From Armatimonadota bacterium (GTDB lineage Bacteria; Sysuimicrobiota; Sysuimicrobiia; Sysuimicrobiales; Kaftiobacteriaceae), in the NCBI GenBank assembly GCA_031081675.1, contig JAVHLZ010000004.1, forward strand, positions 1-64,000: 64,000 nucleotides of DNA. Reading direction: 5' to 3'. Shown here piece after piece: positions 53,158 through 63,996 of this stretch. Within the stretch, counting starts at the first letter, position 1. Every line of letters begins with the position of its first letter. The position numbers and the translations under genes are program-made. Below the pieces are notes generated by a model. That model saw only the letters and a list, made by a program, of their open reading frames with translations, was not told the DNA's origin and made no database searches.

Positions 53158-53790
53158 TTACCGATCGCCGGGCCGGCCGGTGCCCGGGGGGCGGTGGTCG
53201 GAGGCGGGGATCAGCGGCTCGATGCGCGGGGCCAGCAGGTCCTCGGTCACCGCCCCCGCGTGCTTGAAGACGATCCGTCCCTGCCGGTCGATCACGTAGG
53301 TTTCGGGCACGCCGACCACGCCGAAGTCGATGGCGATGGCCCCCGAGCGGTCCATCCCCACGGGAAACGTCTGCCCGAAGCGGCGCAGGAAGGCCCGGGC
53401 TGCGGCCTCGGTGTCCTGGATGTTGATGCCCACGACCACCACGCCCCGGTCCCGATAGCGCTCCCACACGCGCTGCAGGTGCGGGGCTTCGTCGTAGCAG
53501 GCGGGGTAGCACCAGGATGCCCAGAAGTTGACCACCACCACCCGCCCGCGCAGGTTCTGGGAGCGCAGCAGGCCTCCGTCGAACAGCGGCAGGGTGAATG
53601 CCGGGGCCGGACGCCCGACCAGGGGGGACGGCAGCCGCCGGGGATCGCGGCGCAGCCCCGCCCCCAGCACCGCCAGCAGGCCCACCACGACGGCCAGCGC
53701 CACCCACGGCCACCGGATCCGCCGGGTCGGGGGCGACCCCGCCGGCCGGAGGTGTTCGTCGGGGCGCCCTACGGGCGGCGCGGCGGCCAC
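53158..53790 (-). CDS. ccmG: CcmG/ResA/DsbE-type thioredoxin with a CxxxC motif
   Basis: 210 residues from a GTG at 53790 inside the ccmF 3' end, with GGGGGAGG upstream. Membrane anchor (about 28-46), then thioredoxin fold: PAPAFTLPLFDGG, VVVVNFWASWCYPACYDEAP, VVVGINIQDTEAAARAFL and GVPETYVIDRQG. The active site is C-YPA-C (Cys94, Cys98), three residues between cysteines where ResA/CcmG have two. Otherwise a normal CcmG. Expected to reduce apocytochrome c thiols outside the membrane. Confidence 0.88.
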   Translation of the reverse strand: MAAAPPVGRPDEHLRPAGSPPTRRIRWPWVALAVVVGLLAVLGAGLRRDPRRLPSPLVGRPAPAFTLPLFDGGLLRSQNLRGRVVVVNFWASWCYPACYDEAPHLQRVWERYRDRGVVVVGINIQDTEAAARAFLRRFGQTFPVGMDRSGAIAIDFGVVGVPETYVIDRQGRIVFKHAGAVTEDLLAPRIEPLIPASDHRPPGTGRPGDR

Positions 53791-55718
53791 AGGGCCAGTC
53801 CTCCCCCGACGATCATGATGGCCCCGCCGGCCCAGATCCACGACACCAGCGGGCTGATCACCACCCGCAGGACCACCGTCTGCGCGCCCGGGTCGAATCC
53901 CAGCAGTACCACGTACAGGTCCTCCCGCCAGGTGGACCGCACCCCGGGCGTCGGGACGGGGGTCCGGGCGTGGCGGTAGAAGTTCTGGGACGGCCGCAGG
54001 ACCGCCGCCGGCGCCTGATCGCGGGAGGCGGCCAGGGCCGTGCCGCCGTCGGCCACCGACACCGGGGCCCACACCACCAGGCGGTCCGGATACGTTCCCG
54101 CCCGCAGCTCGTCCACCCGCAGGGCGTACGGCCCCACGCGGATCACCTCGCCCACCCGCAGCGCGCGGTGCACCTCCAGGCGAGCAGCCTGGGAGCCTAC
54201 AATGCCCGCCACCACCACCGCCATCCCCAGATGGACCACGTATCCGGCGTAGCGGTGCCGGTGGCGGAGGACCAGCTCGGCCATCGCCGCCGGAACCGGC
54301 CGTCCGCCCCGGTGCAGGGCCCGCACGCCGCGGGCCAGCTCGTCCAGCTGGGCCAGGGCCACGAACGCCACCGCCCCCACCGCCACGACGGCGACGGGCG
54401 CCCGCAACCCGGCGGCCGCCGCGGCGGAAGCGGCGACGGCGGCGAGGCCGCCGGTTCGCGCCAGGCGGCGCAGGTCTGCGGGGGACGACCGTCCCCAGCG
54501 CAGGACGGTGCCGGCGCCCATCAGGGCCAGCAGCACCAGCCCCAGGGGGGTGATCGCGCGATTGAAAAACGGCGGCCCCACGGTGACCTTCTGCCCGGTG
54601 GCCACGTCCACCGCCAGCGGGAACACCGTGCCCACAAACACCGTCGCGGCCATCGCCAGCAGGAGCGCGTTGTTGAAGACCATCAGGGCGTCGCGGGATG
54701 CCACCGACGCCACGCTCCCGGCGTCCCGCACGTCCGGCACCCGCCAGGCCAGCGCGGCGAGCGTCCCCACGGTGACGGCCGCCAGGCCGGCGAGCAGCGC
54801 GGGCCCGATCGCCGACTGGGTGAAGGCGTGCACCGAGGCCAGCACGCCGCTGCGGGTGACGAACGTGCCGAACAGCGTCAGCCAGAACGTCGCCGCAGCC
54901 AGGACCACCGTCCAGGCCCGCAGCACTCCCCGCCGGACCTGGGCCATCGCCGAGTGCACCAGCGCGGTGGCCGTGAGCCACGGCAGCAGGGCGGCGTTCT
55001 CCACCGGATCCCACGCCCAGTAGCCTCCCCATCCCAGGACGTCGTAGGACCACCGGGCCCCCAGGACCAGCCCGGCGGTCAGCGCCGTCCACGCGCCCAG
55101 CGTCCAGGGCCGGCTGACGACCACCCAGTCTTCGGCATCCCGGCCCGCCAGCAGGGAGGCGAGGGCAAACGCATAGGGTACCGCCATGCCCACAAACCCC
55201 AGGTAGAGCAGGGGAGGGTGCAGGATCATCAGCGGGTGGTTCTGCAGCAGGGGGTTCAGTCCGGTGCCGTCGGCCGGTGGCGTCGGCACCCGCGCAAAGG
55301 GATCGGCCGGCCCCACCAGCAGGAGCAGGAAGAACGCGCACAGGCCCAGCAGCACGCCCACCGTCCCGCGCCACAGGCGGGGCGCTGGCGCGCGGGTGCG
55401 GACGGCCACTCCTGCGGTGAGGGCGGCCAGCAGCCAGGTCCACAGCAGCAGGGACCCTTCCAGCGCCCCCCACAGGGCCGCCACCCGGAACGCCAGCGGG
55501 GTGGTGCGGTTGGTGGTGGCGGCCACGTAGCGGATGCTGAAGTCCCCGCCGATCAGGGCCCACTCCAGGAGCGCCACCGCACCGGTGACCGCCACCGCCA
55601 TGCCCGCCGCCAGCGGGACGACCCGCCGCCCGCCCCGCGGCCGGGCGCACGCCGCCAGGCCGGCCACCGCACAGGCCGCCGCGGCCACCAGGCTGATCCA
55701 TCCTCCCAGCGCGATCAC
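53769..55718 (-). CDS. ccmF: Heme lyase CcmF
   Basis: 649 residues with about 15 membrane helices. The heme-handling WWD domain is intact: GWGGYWAWDPVENAALLPWL near 240. NPLLQNHPLMILHPPLLYLGF and GTFVTRSGVLASVHAF are CcmF landmarks, and the final part carries the periplasmic domain and last helix. Attaches heme to apocytochrome c together with CcmH. Overlaps ccmE by four bases and ccmG by 22. Confidence 0.95.
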   Translation of the reverse strand: MIALGGWISLVAAAACAVAGLAACARPRGGRRVVPLAAGMAVAVTGAVALLEWALIGGDFSIRYVAATTNRTTPLAFRVAALWGALEGSLLLWTWLLAALTAGVAVRTRAPAPRLWRGTVGVLLGLCAFFLLLLVGPADPFARVPTPPADGTGLNPLLQNHPLMILHPPLLYLGFVGMAVPYAFALASLLAGRDAEDWVVVSRPWTLGAWTALTAGLVLGARWSYDVLGWGGYWAWDPVENAALLPWLTATALVHSAMAQVRRGVLRAWTVVLAAATFWLTLFGTFVTRSGVLASVHAFTQSAIGPALLAGLAAVTVGTLAALAWRVPDVRDAGSVASVASRDALMVFNNALLLAMAATVFVGTVFPLAVDVATGQKVTVGPPFFNRAITPLGLVLLALMGAGTVLRWGRSSPADLRRLARTGGLAAVAASAAAAAGLRAPVAVVAVGAVAFVALAQLDELARGVRALHRGGRPVPAAMAELVLRHRHRYAGYVVHLGMAVVVAGIVGSQAARLEVHRALRVGEVIRVGPYALRVDELRAGTYPDRLVVWAPVSVADGGTALAASRDQAPAAVLRPSQNFYRHARTPVPTPGVRSTWREDLYVVLLGFDPGAQTVVLRVVISPLVSWIWAGGAIMIVGGGLALWPPRRP

Positions 55719-56104
55719 GGAGACGGGGGAGCGTACTGCTCCGAGTGCTTGACGATCACCGAGCGGGCCACGAAGACGCCGTCGGACCCGTAGATGCCCT
55801 CCACGACCGCCCCCTGGCCTTCGGTGAACAGGTCGGGGGGCACGCCCCGGTACAGGACCGGGACCGCGGCGCGGCCGTCGGTCAGCACGAAGCGCAGCTC
55901 CAGGGTTCGGGGATCAAACGATCGCGACCCCGGCTGCACCTGGCCGCCCAGCCGCAGGGGCCGGCCCACCGCGTCCGGGCCCCGGTCCAGCAGCTCGCCG
56001 GGGGTGATGTAGTAGACCACCGCCCCGCGGAGCCCTCCGATGACGAGGTAGACCAGGGCGCCGACCACCACCGCCGCCGCCAGCATCAGGCGCGCGCGCC
56101 TCAC
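55715..56104 (-). CDS. ccmE: Heme chaperone CcmE
   Basis: 129 residues from the GTG at 56104. N-terminal anchor (about 5-23), OB-fold body (VYYITPGELLD, LRLGGQVQPGS, LRFVLTDG, VPVLYRGVPPDLF, GQGAVVEGIYG) and the heme-binding HxxxY as HSEQY (His120, Tyr124). Shuttles heme from CcmC to CcmF. Confidence 0.95.
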   Translation of the reverse strand: MRRARLMLAAAVVVGALVYLVIGGLRGAVVYYITPGELLDRGPDAVGRPLRLGGQVQPGSRSFDPRTLELRFVLTDGRAAVPVLYRGVPPDLFTEGQGAVVEGIYGSDGVFVARSVIVKHSEQYAPPSP

Positions 56105-56226
56105 CGCGTCTCCTCCCCCCTGCCGGGGCGGGTGCGGCGCAGCCGCCGGCGCAGGTGGACCACGTAGAGCACCACCGCCGCCGCCACCACGCCGTAGGCC
56201 AGGGCGATCCACACCGCCGGCGTCAT
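56101..56226 (-). CDS. ccmD: CcmD
   Basis: 41 residues: one helix (about 4-24, VWIALAYGVVAAAVVLYVVHL) then a highly basic tail, the CcmD pattern. Small stabiliser of the CcmC-CcmE complex. Identified by topology and by four-base overlaps with ccmC and ccmE. Confidence 0.88.
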   Translation of the reverse strand: MTPAVWIALAYGVVAAAVVLYVVHLRRRLRRTRPGRGEETR

Positions 56227-56876
56227 CCGGCCTCCTCGGACTCTTCCCGGCGCGCCACCCGCACGCGCAGGAGCAGCAGGTAGGCGAACAGGACGGTGAA
56301 GGCCAGCAGGCTCAGCAGCAGCGTCAGGAGCATCGGCGGCGCCAGGGCGACCTCTCCACGGGTGATGGACGGAGGCTGGTGCAGGGTCCGGAACCAGACC
56401 ACCGAGTAGTGGATGAGGGGGACGTCTGCCGCCCCGAGGACGCCCACCACCGCGCCCAGCCGGGCTCCCCGCTGCGGATCGTCGGCCAGCGCCCGCACGA
56501 GCAGGGCGCTGCAGTAGATCAGGAACAGGACGGCCGTGGTGACCAGGCGCGCATCCCACGTCCACCACACCCCCCACACGGGGCGCCCCCAGATCGAGCC
56601 GGTGGCCAGCGTGAGGCCCGTGAACAGGACCGCCAGCTCGGTGGCGCTGCGGGTCAGGGCGTCATAGCGCGCCTCACGCCTCCACAGGTACAGGACCCCG
56701 CCGACCAGGGTGACGCCCACCGCCAGGTACGCCACCCAGGCCGTGGGCACATGGACGTACATGATGCGGACGTAGTCGCCCTGAAAGGCGTCCGGCGGCG
56801 ACGCCACCAGGCCCGCATAGGCCGCGGCGCCCAGCAGCAACACGGCCGCACCGCCCAGGACGGCAGACACCGTCAT
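56223..56876 (-). CDS. ccmC: CcmC heme-handling membrane protein
   Basis: 217 residues with six helices. YVRIMYVHVPTAWVAYLA and the WWD motif WGRPVWGVWWTWDARLV with flanking conserved His (HVP, and HYSVVWFRTLHQPPS). Transfers heme to CcmE. Overlaps ccmB and ccmD by four bases. Confidence 0.95.
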   Translation of the reverse strand: MTVSAVLGGAAVLLLGAAAYAGLVASPPDAFQGDYVRIMYVHVPTAWVAYLAVGVTLVGGVLYLWRREARYDALTRSATELAVLFTGLTLATGSIWGRPVWGVWWTWDARLVTTAVLFLIYCSALLVRALADDPQRGARLGAVVGVLGAADVPLIHYSVVWFRTLHQPPSITRGEVALAPPMLLTLLLSLLAFTVLFAYLLLLRVRVARREESEEAG

Positions 56877-57532
56877 ACCTCGTCCATCACCGCCTCAAAC
56901 AGGATCGGACAGGCCAGCACGAACACCGCGACGCTGCCGGCCAGCACCCCCGGCCACACGCCTGCCGGCGCGCCCGCCAGGACGGCCTCGGTGAGCCGGA
57001 TGCAGGCCAGCACGGGCGGCAGGGCCAGGGGCAGCATCAGCAGGGGCGCCAGCAGCTCCCGCCCCCGCACGTGCAGCAGCAGTCCGGCCACCAGCGTTCC
57101 CAGGGCCGCCAGGGCGGCCACGCCGGCCCCGCCCACCGCCGCCAGCTGCGGCAGGCGCGCGGCCACGGGGAGCCCGAACAGGAATGCAGCCAGGATCAGC
57201 AGGACGGCCACCACACCCCCCAGGAGGACCGCGAGCGCGGCGGCTTTGCCCCAGTACAGGTGCTCGCGCCGGCCCGGGTACAGCAGCAGCGCCTCCAGCG
57301 CCTGCTGGTCAGCCTCGGCCTGGGTGATCCGCGGGATGCCCACCGCCGCCGCGCACGCTGCCGACACCCACACCACGGCGGCGGCGCGGGCGGGTTCGGG
57401 CCCCAGCGCCACGCCCAGGACCAGCACCAGCAGCAGGCCCGCCAGGAGCATGGTGAGGGCGACGGCTCGTCCTCGCCACTCCGCGCGCAGGTCCTTGCGG
57501 GCCACCGCCGCCGCCCGCGTCCACCCGCTCAC
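56873..57532 (-). CDS. ccmB: CcmB ABC permease
   Basis: 219 residues from the GTG at 57532, six membrane helices. AVARKDLRAEWRGR start and EALLLYPGRREHLYWGK are typical CcmB. With CcmA it forms the ABC unit that releases holo-CcmE from CcmC. Four-base overlaps with ccmA and ccmC. Confidence 0.93.
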   Translation of the reverse strand: MSGWTRAAAVARKDLRAEWRGRAVALTMLLAGLLLVLVLGVALGPEPARAAAVVWVSAACAAAVGIPRITQAEADQQALEALLLYPGRREHLYWGKAAALAVLLGGVVAVLLILAAFLFGLPVAARLPQLAAVGGAGVAALAALGTLVAGLLLHVRGRELLAPLLMLPLALPPVLACIRLTEAVLAGAPAGVWPGVLAGSVAVFVLACPILFEAVMDEV

Positions 57533-58221
57533 GGGCGGCCTCCCTGCGCGGCGAACGCCGGCGCACCGGGGGCCAGGGATCGGAGCGCGGCGGGCTCCCC
57601 GGCCTGCAGCACCAGTTCCGCATCCGCCAGCGCCCGGGCGCGGTCGCGGTCGTGGGTGGCGATCACGGCACTGCCTCCCCGGGCGACGACCTCCGCCACC
57701 ATGGCGGCGACCAGCGCGGCCCCCTCGGGATCCAGCCCGGCGTAGGGCTCGTCCAGCAGCAGCAGCCGCGGCTGGCCCAACCAGACCCGCGCCAGCGCCA
57801 GCCGGCGCTTCATGCCCTGGCTGAAGGTCCGGACGAGCCGGTCGGCGGCGGCACCCAGACCCACCCGGCGCAGCCAGGCGTCCACGTCCGTCTGCGGGCG
57901 CCCCCACAGGGCGGCTGCGAACTCCAGATTCTCGCGGGCCGTGAGCAGCTCGTAACCGCCGAAGGCGGCGCCCACCAGCCCCACCATCGGGCGCACCCGG
58001 TCCGCCTGCCTGACCAGGTCGCATCCGAAGACGGTGCCCCCGCCCGCCGTGGGTCGCAGGGCGGTGGCCAGCAGGCGCAGCAGCGTCGTCTTGCCCGACC
58101 CGTTGGGACCGGAGACCAGCAGCACCCGGCCGGCAGGCACGGTCAGGGTGATGCGGCGCACGGCCCAGACCGGGCCGAACCGCCGTCCCAGGTTCACCGC
58201 GCGCACGGCCGGGACGTCCAC
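57529..58221 (-). CDS. ccmA: CcmA ABC ATPase
   Basis: 230 residues from a GTG at 58221. Walker A GPNGSGKTT, signature FSQGMKRRLALAR (CcmA-type FSxGxxRR), Walker B LLLLDEPYAGLD, switch ATHDRD. First gene of the eight-gene ccm operon, divergent from the cytochrome c gene; the 165 bases between them hold the presumed promoters. Confidence 0.94.
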   Translation of the reverse strand: MDVPAVRAVNLGRRFGPVWAVRRITLTVPAGRVLLVSGPNGSGKTTLLRLLATALRPTAGGGTVFGCDLVRQADRVRPMVGLVGAAFGGYELLTARENLEFAAALWGRPQTDVDAWLRRVGLGAAADRLVRTFSQGMKRRLALARVWLGQPRLLLLDEPYAGLDPEGAALVAAMVAEVVARGGSAVIATHDRDRARALADAELVLQAGEPAALRSLAPGAPAFAAQGGRP

Positions 58222-58386: not shown

Positions 58387-59289
58387 ATGGGGGGTCGGAT
58401 CGTCGCCGTCGCCATCGTCGTGGCCGGCGCTCTTTTTTTGGCCGGCTGCCAGCCCGCGGTGGACATCTCCCGGGCGGGCGTGGAGGCGGCGCGGGAGCTG
58501 CCCCCGGCGCCGCCGGATCGACCCCTGCTGCCCGTGGACGCCCGGGGCCAGCCCATCCGTCCCTCGGCCGAGGTGGGCGCCCAGGTGTTCAGCCGGGCGC
58601 GGTGCGACGTCTGCCACGGCCCTCAGGGACGCGGCGACGGGCCCGCGGCGGCGGGTCTGCGGGCGGAGCAGAAGACGCTGCTGCACGACCTGGCCCGCCT
58701 GGTGGGGATCCGCCTGCAGCCCGAGCGGCTGCCCAGCCGCCCGGCCAACTTCCGCAACGTGGTGGCGATGCGCCTGAACAGCCCGTTCAGCATGTACGAG
58801 ACCGTCACCCGGGGGCGCCCGCACACGGCGATGCCGGCGTTCGGCCCGCGCCCGGCCTACGGCGCCACGTCCTTCGGCGTCCGGCTGACCGACGCGGAGC
58901 GCTGGCACGTGATCTTCTTCGAGTGGGCGTTCGCCACCACGCCCGAGGAGGTGGCGCGGGGACGCGAGCTGTACGAGACGCGGGCCATCGAGGTGGGCGG
59001 GCGCGCCCTGACCTGCGCGTCCTGCCACGGGGTGCGGGGGGACGGCCGGGGGCCGGAGGGCGTGCGGCTGAGCCAGCGGCTGTGGACGTGGGCCCGGGGA
59101 CAGGGCCCGGGGATCTTCACCGACTTCAACCTGATGGCCCAGCGCAAGCCCAGCGACCTGTTCCAGGCGGTCGTGGACGGACGGGGAGAGATGCCCGCCT
59201 ACCGGGGGAAGCTCACCGAGGACGAGATCTGGGCCCTCGTGAACTACATCTATACGTTCGTCTACGACTATCCGGGGCTGCGCCGGTAG
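58387..59289 (+). CDS. Diheme cytochrome c lipoprotein
   Basis: 300 residues. Lipobox FLAGC (Cys21), then two cytochrome c domains with CDVCH (73-77) and CASCH (210-214), and MPAFGP / MPAYRG as likely methionine axial-ligand regions. A high-potential carrier on the outer face of the membrane, probably taking electrons from the Rieske protein encoded next. Needs the divergent Ccm system for maturation. Confidence 0.88.
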   Translation: MGGRIVAVAIVVAGALFLAGCQPAVDISRAGVEAARELPPAPPDRPLLPVDARGQPIRPSAEVGAQVFSRARCDVCHGPQGRGDGPAAAGLRAEQKTLLHDLARLVGIRLQPERLPSRPANFRNVVAMRLNSPFSMYETVTRGRPHTAMPAFGPRPAYGATSFGVRLTDAERWHVIFFEWAFATTPEEVARGRELYETRAIEVGGRALTCASCHGVRGDGRGPEGVRLSQRLWTWARGQGPGIFTDFNLMAQRKPSDLFQAVVDGRGEMPAYRGKLTEDEIWALVNYIYTFVYDYPGLRR

Positions 59290-59353
59290 CGCGCCCTCCC
59301 GTCCGTCGGGCCACAGCGTATGGTGCCCGGGCGGTGCGCGCGCGGGTGCGTGC

Positions 59354-59359
59354 TATAGT
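59354..59359 (+). promoter_or_regulatory. -10 element (TATAGT) before the Rieske gene
   Basis: TATAGT in GTGCTATAGTGATG, 29 bases before the ATG at 59389. No good -35. It suggests the Rieske/cytochrome b operon has its own start, separate from the cytochrome c gene 99 bases upstream. Confidence 0.45.
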
Positions 59360-59388
59360 GATGGGGTCACAACGGGTGGGATGATCGT

Positions 59389-60081
59389 ATGGAGAACCCG
59401 CCGACGCGGATGATGGAGCGGCGCCGGTTCCTGCGCCTGGCGACCACCGTTCCGGCGCTGGCCGCCCTGGCCGGGCTGGTGTCGCCGCTGCTGCGGCTGC
59501 TCAAGCCCAACGTGGACAAGTTCCGCATCTACGCCCCCACGGCGCACGACACCCCCCAGGGCGAGGCCATCGTGGCGGCCACCCTGTCGGAGGTCGCCCG
59601 CCCCTGGGACTTCAAGTACTTCGTGTTCACCCAGAAGTATCCCCAGTACACGCCCCAGGGATTCAAAGCCGCCGTCGTGCCGGGGGTGGTGGTCCGCCTG
59701 CCGCGGAAGATCCGTCTGTACGATCCGGCCACCGGCCGCGGCCCTCTGGCGTGGGCCCGGGACATCGGCAAGACCCCCCGGGTCACCGACAGCGACCTGG
59801 TGGTGTTTTCCCGGATCTGCCCGCACCTGGGCTGCATCTTCAACTACGTCCCCGACTACCGGGAGATCACCGCCGGCTACGGCGGCTACGTGCCGCCCCC
59901 CGAGCGCCGGCACGCCCTGATGGGGTGTCCCTGCCACCTGAGCATCTACGACCCGGCCGACCCGCAGGTCCCGGGGAGGGTCCTCTCGGGTCCGGCGCCG
60001 CGCCCCCCGCGCACGTTTCTGTTTGAGGTGCGGGGCGGGGACATCGTCATCACCGACGTGGAGCCGGGGGGAATCGCCTGA
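59389..60081 (+). CDS. qcrA: Rieske iron-sulfur protein of a cytochrome b complex
   Basis: 230 residues. Tat-type N-terminus ERRRFLRLAT and one helix (about 15-36). [2Fe-2S] ligands are CPHLGC (Cys144, His146) and CPCHLS (Cys180, His183), with Cys149 and Cys182 as the disulfide pair. An insert between the two motifs (DYREITAGYGGYVPPPERRHA) is longer than in mitochondrial Rieske proteins. Takes electrons from quinol at the Qo site and passes them to cytochrome c. Confidence 0.93.
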   Translation: MENPPTRMMERRRFLRLATTVPALAALAGLVSPLLRLLKPNVDKFRIYAPTAHDTPQGEAIVAATLSEVARPWDFKYFVFTQKYPQYTPQGFKAAVVPGVVVRLPRKIRLYDPATGRGPLAWARDIGKTPRVTDSDLVVFSRICPHLGCIFNYVPDYREITAGYGGYVPPPERRHALMGCPCHLSIYDPADPQVPGRVLSGPAPRPPRTFLFEVRGGDIVITDVEPGGIA

Positions 60082-60090
60082 GGTCTGACC

Positions 60091-61251
60091 ATGTGGGAGA
60101 CGGTGCGCGACTGGCTGCGAGAGCGCCGGGAGAAACTGGACCTGTTCGACGAGACCCTGGTGGCCCGGCAGGGCAATCCCTTCTACCTCCTGGGGCCCAT
60201 GCTGTACTACTTCTGGCTCATCACCGTCGTCACCGGGGTCGTCCTGATGCTGTGGTACGAGCCCACCACCACGGGCGCCTACAGCTCCATTGAGCGCATT
60301 CAGAACGAGATCGGCCGCACCGGCCTGACCGTGTTCGGGCGCCCGGTGGTCCTGGGCGGGCTGATCCGCGGCCTGCACAAGTACGGCGCCGACGCCCTCA
60401 TCACCGTCATCTTCCTGCGCCTGTACCGCATGTACTTCCTGGGAGAGTACAAGAAGCCGGGCGAGCTGTCGTGGATGCTGGCCTTTGCCGGATTGATCCT
60501 GGCCATGATCTCCGGGATCACCGGCTACCTGCTCATCTGGAACCAGCGGGCCTTCTGGGCCGCCAAGGTAGTCCTGACGGTCCCGGTGTACTTCGACGAG
60601 ATCCCGGTCCTGGGCCAGTTGAAGTTCGGCTCGATGATCGCCTACCTGTTCCTGGGCGGGCCGGCCATCGGCCAGGCCACCATCACCCGGTTTTACGCCA
60701 TCCACTTCGGCATCTCCCTGGTCCTGCTGGTCCTGGTGGAGGTGCTGTTCTTCCGCACCCGCCGCAAGCGCATCAACATGTCGCTGACGCCCCTGGCGGT
60801 GTTCCTGGTCATGCTGGTGGTCATCTCCCTCCTCCTGCCAGCCGAAAGCGGCCGGCGGGCCGATCCCACGCGGACGCCCCTGCCCATCCTGTCGGACTGG
60901 TACTTCCTGGCCCTGTACCAGTACGTGAAGTATACGCCGCCGTTGTGGGCGGGGCTGGGCCCCGGGCTGCTCATCGGCTTCGGCATGCTGGTGCCCTTTC
61001 TGGACCGCAGCCGGGGCCGCCGGCCCCTGGAGCGGCCGTTCTTCTTCGTGGTGGGCGTGCTGGCGCTCACCTACTTCCTGGTGTTCACGGCGCTGATCCT
61101 GTTCAACATCGCGGTGATCGAGCGGGATCCGTTCATCATCATGCTGGTGACGCTGGCGGTTCTGAGCCTGGGCCTGGCGTGGGAGATCCGGTACCGCCGC
61201 CGCCGGGCGGCGGCCCCCGCTGCGCCAGCCCGGGCGCCCGCCCGCGGGTAG
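60091..61251 (+). CDS. Cytochrome b subunit missing one heme-ligand pair
   Basis: 386 residues: a cytochrome b6-like N-terminal half and a subunit-IV-like C-terminal half in one chain (about 8 helices). His96 (LIRGLHKYG) and His205 (RFYAIHFG) remain as one heme pair. The second pair is absent: the position 14 after His96 is Arg110 (FLRLYRMY), and the one 14-15 after His205 is Leu/Phe (EVLFFR). The PEWY quinol motif reads SDWY (268-271). It should hold one b heme only, unless another ligand is used. Confidence 0.88.
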   Translation: MWETVRDWLRERREKLDLFDETLVARQGNPFYLLGPMLYYFWLITVVTGVVLMLWYEPTTTGAYSSIERIQNEIGRTGLTVFGRPVVLGGLIRGLHKYGADALITVIFLRLYRMYFLGEYKKPGELSWMLAFAGLILAMISGITGYLLIWNQRAFWAAKVVLTVPVYFDEIPVLGQLKFGSMIAYLFLGGPAIGQATITRFYAIHFGISLVLLVLVEVLFFRTRRKRINMSLTPLAVFLVMLVVISLLLPAESGRRADPTRTPLPILSDWYFLALYQYVKYTPPLWAGLGPGLLIGFGMLVPFLDRSRGRRPLERPFFFVVGVLALTYFLVFTALILFNIAVIERDPFIIMLVTLAVLSLGLAWEIRYRRRRAAAPAAPARAPARG

Positions 61252-61255
61252 GCCG

Positions 61256-61501
61256 ATGCGGCTGCTGTCCATCGCGGTGGCGTTCGTGGCGGCCCTGGCG
61301 GCCCTGTCGGCGGGGTGGGCGGCGGTGCAGGCGGCGTGGGCCGCCCCCACCCCGGGCGCCCTGGCCCGGGTGGCGGGGTACGCGCTGGTCTTCGCGGCGG
61401 CGTTTCTGTACCTGGGGTTCTGGGTGTACGCGGCGGACCGCGCGGCGGGCAGGGTCCGCCGGCGCATCGGCCTGTATGAGCGCTTCCTGGCCGGCCGGTA
61501 G
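61256..61501 (+). CDS. Small two-helix membrane protein in the cytochrome b operon
   Basis: 81 residues: helices about 4-28 and 38-60, then a basic tail DRAAGRVRRRIGLYERFLAGR. Four bases after the cytochrome b stop. No family recognised; likely an accessory subunit of the complex by position. Confidence 0.65.
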   Translation: MRLLSIAVAFVAALAALSAGWAAVQAAWAAPTPGALARVAGYALVFAAAFLYLGFWVYAADRAAGRVRRRIGLYERFLAGR

Positions 61502-61560
61502 GACCCCGGTGGGAGCCCCTGGCGTCGGGGAGGGATGGGCGTGAATGCGGAGGGGACGGG

Positions 61561-61761
61561 ATGCGGAACGCGCATCTGACCGGCATCATCGCCCTCAGCG
61601 CCGTGGCCGTGGCGGCCGCGGCCGGCATCGTCTACGGGGAAGCCACCGACCGGTGGTACCTGGGCGGCGCCCTGGTGGGCGTGCTGCTGATCGCGTACGC
61701 GGGCATCGTGCTGCTGCTGCGTCGGATGGGCCTGATCGGGCCCCGGAGGGCTGAGCGGTGA
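61561..61761 (+). CDS. Small two-helix membrane protein in the cytochrome b operon
   Basis: 66 residues: helices about 5-25 and 33-53 with GEATDRWYLGG between them and a basic end MGLIGPRRAER. Ribosome site GGAGGGGACGGG just upstream. Overlaps the next gene by four bases (GTGA). No family recognised; probable accessory subunit. Confidence 0.65.
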   Translation: MRNAHLTGIIALSAVAVAAAAGIVYGEATDRWYLGGALVGVLLIAYAGIVLLLRRMGLIGPRRAER

Positions 61762-62951
61762 GCGTCGCGGACGTGCGGCCCAGCCGCTACGGGCGGGTGA
61801 TGACCGCGCTGTTGCGGGCCACCCTGCGGGTGGACACGTGGATCCACCGGATCGTGCCCACCGACTACAACCCGCTGTACTACACCGGCGGCCTGGCCAA
61901 CCTCTTCCTGCTGGTCCTGGTCCTCTCGGGTATCTTCCTGTTCTTCTACTACGAGGCCAGCCTGGAGGGCGCGTTCGCCTCGGTGCGCTACCTGACCCAG
62001 GCGGTCCCCTACGGGGGGCTGCTGCGGGGGGTGCACCGCTACGCCGCCGACGCCTTCGTGGTGGCCATCCTGCTGCACCTGTTCCGCAACTGGTTCACCG
62101 ACCGCTACCTGTTCTCCCGGGATAACCCGTGGATCTCGGGGATGATCCTGCTGCTGTTCGGGGGCTTCATCGGGGTCACCGGCTACCAGCTGGTGTGGGA
62201 TGAGCGGGCCCAGGTCCTGACCGCGCTGTTCGCGCGCCTGCTGCGCAGCATCCCCGGGGTGGGCGGCGCGCTGGCCGAGCTGTTCTTGGGGGGGCGCGGG
62301 GTCAGCGATGCCACCCTGGTGCGGATGCTGTTCCTGCACATCGGGCCCGCCTCGGCCCTGTACCTGCTGCTGTGGTGGCACTACCTGCGGCTGCGCCACC
62401 CCAAGATCTGGCCGCCGGCGATGTGGGTGCTGTTCTGCGTGGGGCTGGTCTTCCTGCTGGCGGGCCTGATTCCCGTGGGCGCCGAGGCCATCCCGCCGGC
62501 GGCGCCGGCCGCGCGGCCCACCCGGTTCGCCCTGGATGTCTTCTTCCTGTGGCCGTTCTGGCTGCTGAACTGGCTGCCGCCCCGCGGGGTCGTGGCCCTG
62601 GGGGTGGTCCTGTTCACCGCCGGCCTGGCCATCCCGTACCTCAGCCGGCGAGAGCACCCCGCGGCCATGGGGGTGCGCCACGCCGGCGTGGCCCAGGTGA
62701 TCGACGGCAACTGCACCGGATGCGAGCTGTGCTACTACGACTGTCCCTACAACGCCATCGTCATGGTGCCGTCTCCCGCCCCGGGGCTGACCAAGGCGGC
62801 GGCGAACCGCACCCTGCTGGCGGTGGTGGTGGAGTCCCGGTGCGTGGAATGCGGGATCTGCATCGGCGCGTGCCCCTTTGAGGCGCTGGAGCTGCCCCGG
62901 CTCCTGGAGCGGGACGTGCTGGCGCAGGTGGCGGAGGCGGTGTCGGCATGA
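61758..62951 (+). CDS. Cytochrome b fused to a 2x[4Fe-4S] ferredoxin domain
   Basis: 397 residues from a GTG. Residues 1-300: cytochrome b-like membrane part with both heme pairs, His93/His107 (GVHRYA, LLHLFR) and His194/His208 (FLHIGP, WWHYLR). Further helices contain a degenerate quinone region (ALDVFFLWPFWLLNW). Residues 310-397: ferredoxin with CTGCELCYYDCP (319-329) and CVECGICIGACP (362-372), enough for two [4Fe-4S] clusters on the cytoplasmic side. The fusion joins quinone chemistry to low-potential iron-sulfur transfer. Overlaps both neighbours. Confidence 0.9.
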   Translation: MSVADVRPSRYGRVMTALLRATLRVDTWIHRIVPTDYNPLYYTGGLANLFLLVLVLSGIFLFFYYEASLEGAFASVRYLTQAVPYGGLLRGVHRYAADAFVVAILLHLFRNWFTDRYLFSRDNPWISGMILLLFGGFIGVTGYQLVWDERAQVLTALFARLLRSIPGVGGALAELFLGGRGVSDATLVRMLFLHIGPASALYLLLWWHYLRLRHPKIWPPAMWVLFCVGLVFLLAGLIPVGAEAIPPAAPAARPTRFALDVFFLWPFWLLNWLPPRGVVALGVVLFTAGLAIPYLSRREHPAAMGVRHAGVAQVIDGNCTGCELCYYDCPYNAIVMVPSPAPGLTKAAANRTLLAVVVESRCVECGICIGACPFEALELPRLLERDVLAQVAEAVSA

Positions 62952-63397
62952 GCGAGCCCCGGATCGTGGGGTTTGTGTGCGACTGGAGCGTGGACCTCCG
63001 GCCCCTGGTGGACGGCGGCCGGCTGCGGGATCTGCCCGGGGTGCGGATCATCCGCGTCCCCTGCTCGGGTTTCGTGCGCCCCGCGTGGCTGGAGGAGGCC
63101 CTCGTCCGGGGCGCCGCCGGCGCCTTCGTCACCGGGTGTCCGTACGGGGACTGCCTGAACCGCGAGGGCAACTTCCTGATGCGGGATCGGATCGACCAGC
63201 TGCAGCGCCGGCTGCAGCGCCGCAAGATCGACCCCGCCCGGGTGGCCATGCTGGCCCACGGGCTGCACGACGGGCGGGCGTTCCTGGAGGCGGTGCGCGC
63301 CTTCGCGGACCGGGTGGCCGCGCTGCCGGCTCCGGCCCGGCCGGGCCGCCCGGCGGTGGCGCAACCGGCCGGCGCGCCGGAGGGGGAGGGGACGTGA
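62948..63397 (+). CDS. MvhD/FlpD-family iron-sulfur electron transfer protein
   Basis: 149 residues. Follows the MvhD/FlpD (methyl-viologen-reducing hydrogenase delta) pattern: VGFVCDWSVDL, VRIIRVPCSGFVRPAWL, TGCPYGDCLNREGNF and MRDRIDQLQRRL. Cys11, 39, 64 and 69 are kept; the second Cys of the usual CxxC start is Ser14. In methanogens and acetogens this protein carries electrons between hydrogenase or formate dehydrogenase and HdrA. No Hdr or hydrogenase gene is in the window. A Pro/Ala tail follows residue 128. Four-base overlaps on both sides. Confidence 0.85.
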   Translation: MSEPRIVGFVCDWSVDLRPLVDGGRLRDLPGVRIIRVPCSGFVRPAWLEEALVRGAAGAFVTGCPYGDCLNREGNFLMRDRIDQLQRRLQRRKIDPARVAMLAHGLHDGRAFLEAVRAFADRVAALPAPARPGRPAVAQPAGAPEGEGT

Positions 63398-63501
63398 GCC
63401 GGGCGCCGCTGCGGGTGCACCTGCTGTACCTGTTGTTCTACCTGTTCTGGTTCCTGCTGCTGACGTTCATCGCGTCCTTCGGGCTGGTGGCCGAGGCGTA
63501 G
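63394..63501 (+). CDS. 35-residue single-span membrane peptide
   Basis: From a GTG overlapping the MvhD-like stop by four bases: SRAPLRVHLL, then one hydrophobic helix rich in Leu, Phe and Tyr to FGLVAEA. The size, coupling and topology are those of small subunits of respiratory complexes (PetL/PetN-like), but no family match is claimed. Confidence 0.6.
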   Translation: MSRAPLRVHLLYLLFYLFWFLLLTFIASFGLVAEA

Positions 63502-63618: not shown

Positions 63619-63996
63619 ATGGGCAGGAGGATGGGGCGGTGGGCGGTGCTGGCCGGCGTGGCGGTGATCGTCGCGGGCTGCGGGGGCGGTGGTCCCCGGG
63701 GCGGGCAGCCGGCGGCGCCGGCGGAGGGAGCCATCACCGTCACCGAGACCGAGTGGGCCATCCGGTTTCCCGGCACCCCCCTCAAGGCCGGGAAGGCCAC
63801 CCTGGTCATCAGGAACGAGGGCACCATCGAGCACAACTTCGTCATCCAGGGGCTGGGCGTGGAAGTGGACGCCATCCCCCCCGGCGGGTCCCGGCAGGTG
63901 ACCGTGGACCTGCGGCCGGGGACGTATGAGGTGGTCTGCAACCTCCCCGGCCACCTGGAGGCCGGCATGAAGACGACCATCACCGTCGCTCCCTGA
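63619..63996 (+). CDS. Cupredoxin lipoprotein
   Basis: 125 residues. AAGGAGGGAG precedes the ATG. Lipobox VAGC (Cys21), a Gly/Pro linker, then a small blue-copper fold with ligands His72 (EHNFVI), Cys107, His112 and Met117 in the CNLPGHLEAGM block. A membrane-tethered outer-face electron carrier, possibly an alternative partner of the Rieske or diheme cytochrome c, or feeding a terminal oxidase outside the window. The window ends just after its stop. Confidence 0.88.
   Translation: MGRRMGRWAVLAGVAVIVAGCGGGGPRGGQPAAPAEGAITVTETEWAIRFPGTPLKAGKATLVIRNEGTIEHNFVIQGLGVEVDAIPPGGSRQVTVDLRPGTYEVVCNLPGHLEAGMKTTITVAP

Follow-up and report, generated by a model that had tools for sequence, protein, structure and literature searches.

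An operon of Sysuimicrobiota encodes a Rieske protein and two unlike cytochromes b, one without heme bH ligands and one fused to a ferredoxin domain

The bc1 and b6f complexes share with the operon described here a Rieske protein, a cytochrome b with a Qo motif and heme bL ligands, a c-type cytochrome and a small single-helix peptide. Unlike bc1 and b6f, however, this operon encodes two unlike cytochromes b, designated b1 and b2, both of which align best, among solved structures, with cytochrome b6. Specifically, b1 has no heme bH ligands, b2 has neither a normal Qo region nor helices G and H and carries a ferredoxin domain, and an FlpD subunit is added. An engineered, cross-inactivated Rhodobacter bc1, with the Qo site dead in one half and heme bH knocked out in the other, turns over via bL–bL electron transfer (PMC4330944); it is a laboratory construct with an ordinary Qi site, whereas the present system is natural and has ferredoxin and FlpD attached. 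For the anammox Rieske/cytochrome b complexes, an N-side exit to NAD(P) has been proposed, and the Rieske potentials lie above +300 mV (PMC12954380). The Kuenenia complexes Kuste4569-4574 and Kustd1480-1485 have in common with our model this proposed negative-side, low-potential exit through Fe-S clusters (PMC12954380), but they comprise a four-helix b6-like cytochrome b modelled as a homodimer, subunit IV, an FAD/NAD(P) reductase and a multiheme cytochrome c, in contrast to the two unlike cytochromes b, ferredoxin fusion and FlpD found here; no FAD/NAD(P) oxidoreductase subunit is present among the operon genes. Homologues of b2 and FlpD occur in eNOR-like operons with the same domain order, four His and eight Cys, at 30-36% identity, and a protein with cytochrome b6, DMSOR-beta-like and FlpD domains appears in PMC8756737; that module, however, is one polypeptide beside COX2-COX1-SCO1, with neither Rieske nor b1. 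The MvhD/FlpD of the Mvh-Hdr system shares the FlpD fold, but the present operon encodes no hydrogenase or HdrA. The first-pass annotation knew of no described complex of this composition, and the open-licence papers that we searched, also for heterodimeric cytochromes b, yielded none; the main text of the Sysuimicrobiota paper mentions neither Rieske nor cytochrome b.

The operon lies in the window, the whole 64,000-nucleotide stretch of DNA analysed here, and its eight genes, like the cupredoxin gene downstream, are on the plus strand. It opens with a diheme c-type cytochrome lipoprotein (58387..59289), which has an LAGC lipobox and two CxxCH motifs, matches Pfam Cytochrome_CBB3 over two stretches (E=7e-18) and is presumed to be the electron acceptor of the Rieske protein; its start codon is the ATG at 58387, the same start as in the first-pass annotation. 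The Rieske 2Fe-2S protein (59389..60081; TIGR01416, E=5e-11) bears a Tat-like signal and is followed by b1 (60091..61251), a long cytochrome b that matches Pfam Cytochrome_B (E=3e-27) and Cytochrom_B_C (E=1.5e-6). Next come two small membrane proteins of no known family, s81 (61256..61501), with no Pfam match, 34 distinct homologues, a conserved position and a C-terminal YaaDRaAGrvRR motif, and s66 (61561..61761), with 35 distinct homologues. The b2 protein (61758..62951; Pfam cytochrome b, E=1e-29) consists of helices A-F and a C-terminal 2x[4Fe-4S] domain. It is followed by the FlpD/MvhD-like protein (62948..63397; PF02662, E=4e-26) and by pep35 (63394..63501), a single-helix membrane peptide of 35 residues that has 31 distinct homologues at the equivalent position. 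The s66/b2, b2/FlpD and FlpD/pep35 pairs overlap by 4 bp each (GTGA, ATGA and GTGA, respectively). The gene set, order, overlaps and motifs on which the first-pass annotation was built are thus all present.

The surroundings of the operon look, from their gene content, like a respiratory island. As named from reading the sequence, cytochrome c maturation genes lie upstream (53158-58024), and genes for a cupredoxin, a polyprenyl diphosphate synthase, TatA and TatC lie downstream. The cupredoxin lipoprotein (63619..63996; Cupredoxin_1, E=4e-8), a possible downstream electron carrier, stands downstream of the operon in many relatives, not in all. The heme-copper oxidase neighbourhood COX2-COX1-SCO1 does not occur in the window, and a divergent COX1/CcoN-like gene directly follows pep35 only in families f3, f5 and f7; its product seems to be missing the usual catalytic histidine pattern, and at one f5 locus (L112:10261-12700) it is followed by FixO-like and cytochrome c genes.

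A shared gene order in related genomes, which the first-pass annotation had named as the thing to look for, is found throughout Sysuimicrobiota (formerly CSP1-3), a phylum with no cultured members. A long b2-ferredoxin match is present in 37 of 43 genomes, two more (G004 and G018) hold the front of the operon with the rest cut off at contig ends, and the order cytochrome c-Rieske-b1-s81-s66-b2-ferredoxin-FlpD-pep35 is identical in relatives wherever the contig permits. Taken together, this distribution and constancy of order argue that the cluster is not a product of chance. Uniquely among the 43, all four genomes of genus g12 (G008-G011) lack the operon; they likewise lack COX1, and the genus is apparently an anaerobic lineage. 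Several FlpD and HdrA-like proteins are encoded in the g12 genomes.

The Qo half of the proposed complex would be carried by b1 and the Rieske protein. In b1, the heme bL ligands H96 and H205 and the Qo motif SDWY are kept in 31 of 31 distinct sequences, and the cd1 aromatic pair FW is retained. At the positions of the heme bH ligands, by alignment with cytochrome b6, the helix-B histidine is replaced by Arg110 in all 31 sequences, and position 219 in helix D is His in none of the 31, being aromatic or Leu/Met and mostly Phe, Tyr or Leu (L219 in the window copy); Glu217 is invariant (31/31). The first-pass annotation did not note this loss. With exactly two His and no Cys, the window b1 can accommodate neither a second bis-His heme nor a covalent heme c_n. 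More than 50 other cytochromes b, likewise aligned and comprising b2, HCO-linked fusions, ordinary Rieske cytochromes b (those of Sysuimicrobiota itself among them) and b6 from the PDB, all keep the four His. An assembly error is ruled out as the source of the bH loss by the agreement of 31 distinct sequences. The single-chain AlphaFold model of b1 is unusable (pLDDT 50). The Rieske protein has the motifs C144-x-H146-xx-C149 and C180-x-C182-H183, with the ligand residues conserved in 24 of 24 sequences, and additionally keeps Ser185 (23/24) and Tyr187 (24/24), a Ser and Tyr pair that accompanies high potential in known Rieske proteins. Elsewhere in the window's genome, contig C27 (L107:8640-9683) carries a further Rieske-type cytochrome b of the ordinary kind (four His, PEWY), close to genes for cytochrome c maturation and for a molybdopterin oxidoreductase.

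The cytoplasmic half would be formed by b2 and FlpD. The cytochrome b pattern of four His and two hemes, which is broken in every one of the 31 b1 sequences, is found in all 35 b2 sequences (His 93, 107, 194 and 208), and each of the eight ferredoxin Cys is kept in at least 34 of 35. Over about 285 residues, the AF2 model of b2, which is of fair quality (pLDDT 77), agrees with bc1 cytochrome b. The Qo region, by contrast with that of bc1 and b6f, is degenerate in b2: the motif reads xD[WV]F/L, with the PEWY tyrosine lost and the acidic residue retained, and the cd1 aromatic pair is lost, being mostly Q-L. Since the acidic motif residue is kept, b2 may have a modified Qo site, not a dead one. 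In cytochromes b, a domain placed after helix F faces the cytoplasm, and the b2 ferredoxin, which occupies this position, is accordingly expected on the cytoplasmic side; FlpD, which has no signal peptide, is expected there too. FlpD carries four invariant Cys (11, 39, 64 and 69), all of which match cysteines of MvhD in the alignment with 5odc_D (E=3e-25), and is missing two of the three Cys of the MvhD CCxxC motif.

We propose that a b1–b2 heterodimer forms the core of an asymmetric Rieske/cytochrome b complex. Quinol would be oxidised at the Qo site of b1, with the first electron passing to the Rieske cluster, the diheme cytochrome c and a heme-copper oxidase. The second electron would enter heme bL of b1, where no bH is present to take it, cross from bL of b1 to bL of b2, reach bH of b2 on the cytoplasmic side, and leave through the ferredoxin domain and FlpD to a soluble acceptor. 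The loss of bH in b1 provides the best sequence-level ground for a single b1–b2 heterodimer: in a b1 homodimer the low-potential electron would be stranded because no route leads onward from bL, and pairing with b2 would solve this by opening a path from Qo(b1) through bL(b1) and bL(b2) to bH(b2), and from there to ferredoxin/FlpD or to quinone. If the two are paired, b1–b2 would be nature's equivalent of the bc1 dimer engineered with cross-inactivated halves. The low-potential exit proposed in the first-pass annotation is borne out as to its place, in that ferredoxin and FlpD are both expected on the side of the membrane that it would need; the direction of flow, like the heterodimer, the bL–bL transfer and the final acceptor, is something we infer. 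This model as a whole, with its heterodimer, obligatory bL–bL crossing and exit via ferredoxin/FlpD, is to us the best explanation, with a probability of roughly 0.5.

The position of the complex in respiration bears on where the second electron would go. In 16 genomes, of which eleven reach a completeness of 93% or more, b1 and b2 are the sole Cytochrome_B matches, and all 16 encode COX1. NuoF-type proteins are nearly universal among Sysuimicrobiota genomes, and ActD is absent from all 43, which rules out alternative complex III as the actual quinol oxidase. In those 16 genomes, the role of main quinol:cytochrome c oxidoreductase therefore probably falls to this complex. As for the quinone itself, a futalosine-pathway gene is found in 3 genomes and MenD over the cut-off in 17; the window's genome yielded neither MqnA nor a MenD above that cut-off. 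A sole complex III that always sent half of its electrons to the cytoplasm would need a return route, which counts against our model. The fuller version, in which a natural heterodimer with obligatory bL–bL transfer and a low-potential exit via ferredoxin/FlpD serves as the sole complex III of some lineages, its electrons coming back via complex I or going into biosynthesis, is accordingly put forward more tentatively, at somewhat less than even odds.

The same heterodimer could instead run an ordinary Q cycle, the electron ending at a Qi site of b2 and ferredoxin/FlpD acting as an input through which a cytoplasmic donor reduces quinone, as proposed for cyclic flow through b6f. That the complex is seemingly the only quinol:cytochrome c oxidoreductase in the 16 genomes with oxidases, mostly with NuoF-type proteins, speaks for this arrangement, since a Q cycle is what one would expect of such genomes, as does H214, which is kept near the bH ligand in 34 of 35 b2 sequences; b2 may thus have a Qi site at which the electron passes to quinone. 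Against it, there is no cysteine for heme c_n, and we consider this reading possible but rather unlikely.

A second alternative holds that b2-ferredoxin-FlpD is a separate transmembrane electron conduit, merely co-transcribed with the Rieske/b1 complex, and it draws on the ancestry of the parts. A scan of 85,462 species genomes for b2 homologues detected cytochrome b-ferredoxin proteins of 30-36% identity in Deltaproteobacteria, Myxococcales, Gammaproteobacteria, Methylomirabilota and Anaerolineae. In the closely read loci outside the phylum, cytochrome b, ferredoxin and FlpD form one polypeptide adjoining COX2, COX1 and SCO1, and the COX1 has GH[SP]SQQ in place of the oxidase active-site tyrosine, which fits eNOR as tabulated in PMC8756737. 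Rieske and b1 are missing from these eNOR-like operons, and the one check for b1 made outside Sysuimicrobiota, covering 17 genomes with the eNOR-like module, returned no b1-type protein; in several of these genomes an ordinary bc1 cytochrome b is encoded at another locus. A module that occurs without Rieske/b1 in COX2-COX1-SCO operons of Deltaproteobacteria, Myxococcales, Methylomirabilota and others, in genomes of which several hold a bc1 cytochrome b of their own, favours a separate conduit. On the other hand, such a conduit would leave b1 as a homodimer with no path from bL across the membrane, and b1-type proteins are seen solely alongside b2 wherever contigs permit; we find this account distinctly improbable. 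The first-pass annotation had asked whether the two cytochromes b belong to separate, independently occurring operons: this holds for the b2-ferredoxin-FlpD module in other phyla, whereas in Sysuimicrobiota the two stand together.

In a tree of 61 cytochromes b, for which the tool gave a long-branch warning, a split supported by 99/95 separates two groups, one joining b2 to the HCO-linked fusions and the other joining b1 to ordinary Rieske cytochromes b. Recent duplication as the origin of b1 and b2 is rejected on the strength of this split, and because of these groupings the complex looks like a merger of two lineages rather than a duplication. Among further loci of this type, the cytochrome b-ferredoxin-FlpD gene is present in two tandem copies at L073:1414-5182. 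The window's genome also has its own eNOR-like COX2-COX1 pair on contig C11 (L134:1648-5200), followed by a second, divergent COX1-like gene whose product shares 31% identity with a protein encoded next to an eNOR-like operon in L086.

Docking of FlpD on HdrA, as part of a flavin-based bifurcating system, is very improbable: FlpD aligns with MvhD and some Sysuimicrobiota carry NiFe 3c hydrogenases (PMC11604079), but 30 of the 43 genomes (the window's plus 29 more) contain nothing HdrA-like at a cut-off of E<=1e-30, 29 of those 30 nevertheless have the operon FlpD (the exception, G018, has its operon ended by a contig edge), and extra FlpD copies occur mainly in HdrA-bearing genomes. HdrA could be a partner in a minority of genomes; as a general role, the link to HdrA-type bifurcation drawn in the first-pass annotation is ruled out by the HdrA-less genomes that have FlpD.

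Our preferred reading, a b1–b2 heterodimer with electron exit through ferredoxin and FlpD, bears on how cytochrome b dimers work. Whether electrons cross from bL to bL in normal bc1 turnover has so far been debated on the basis of engineered half-dead dimers; such a construct appears to have evolved across an entire phylum, which makes the question testable in a natural enzyme. If the model is true, a low-potential exit would have been built into a Rieske/cytochrome b complex independently for a second time, following the one proposed for anammox, and the composition suggests that a module also known from nitric-oxide-reductase-type operons became part of a respiratory complex.
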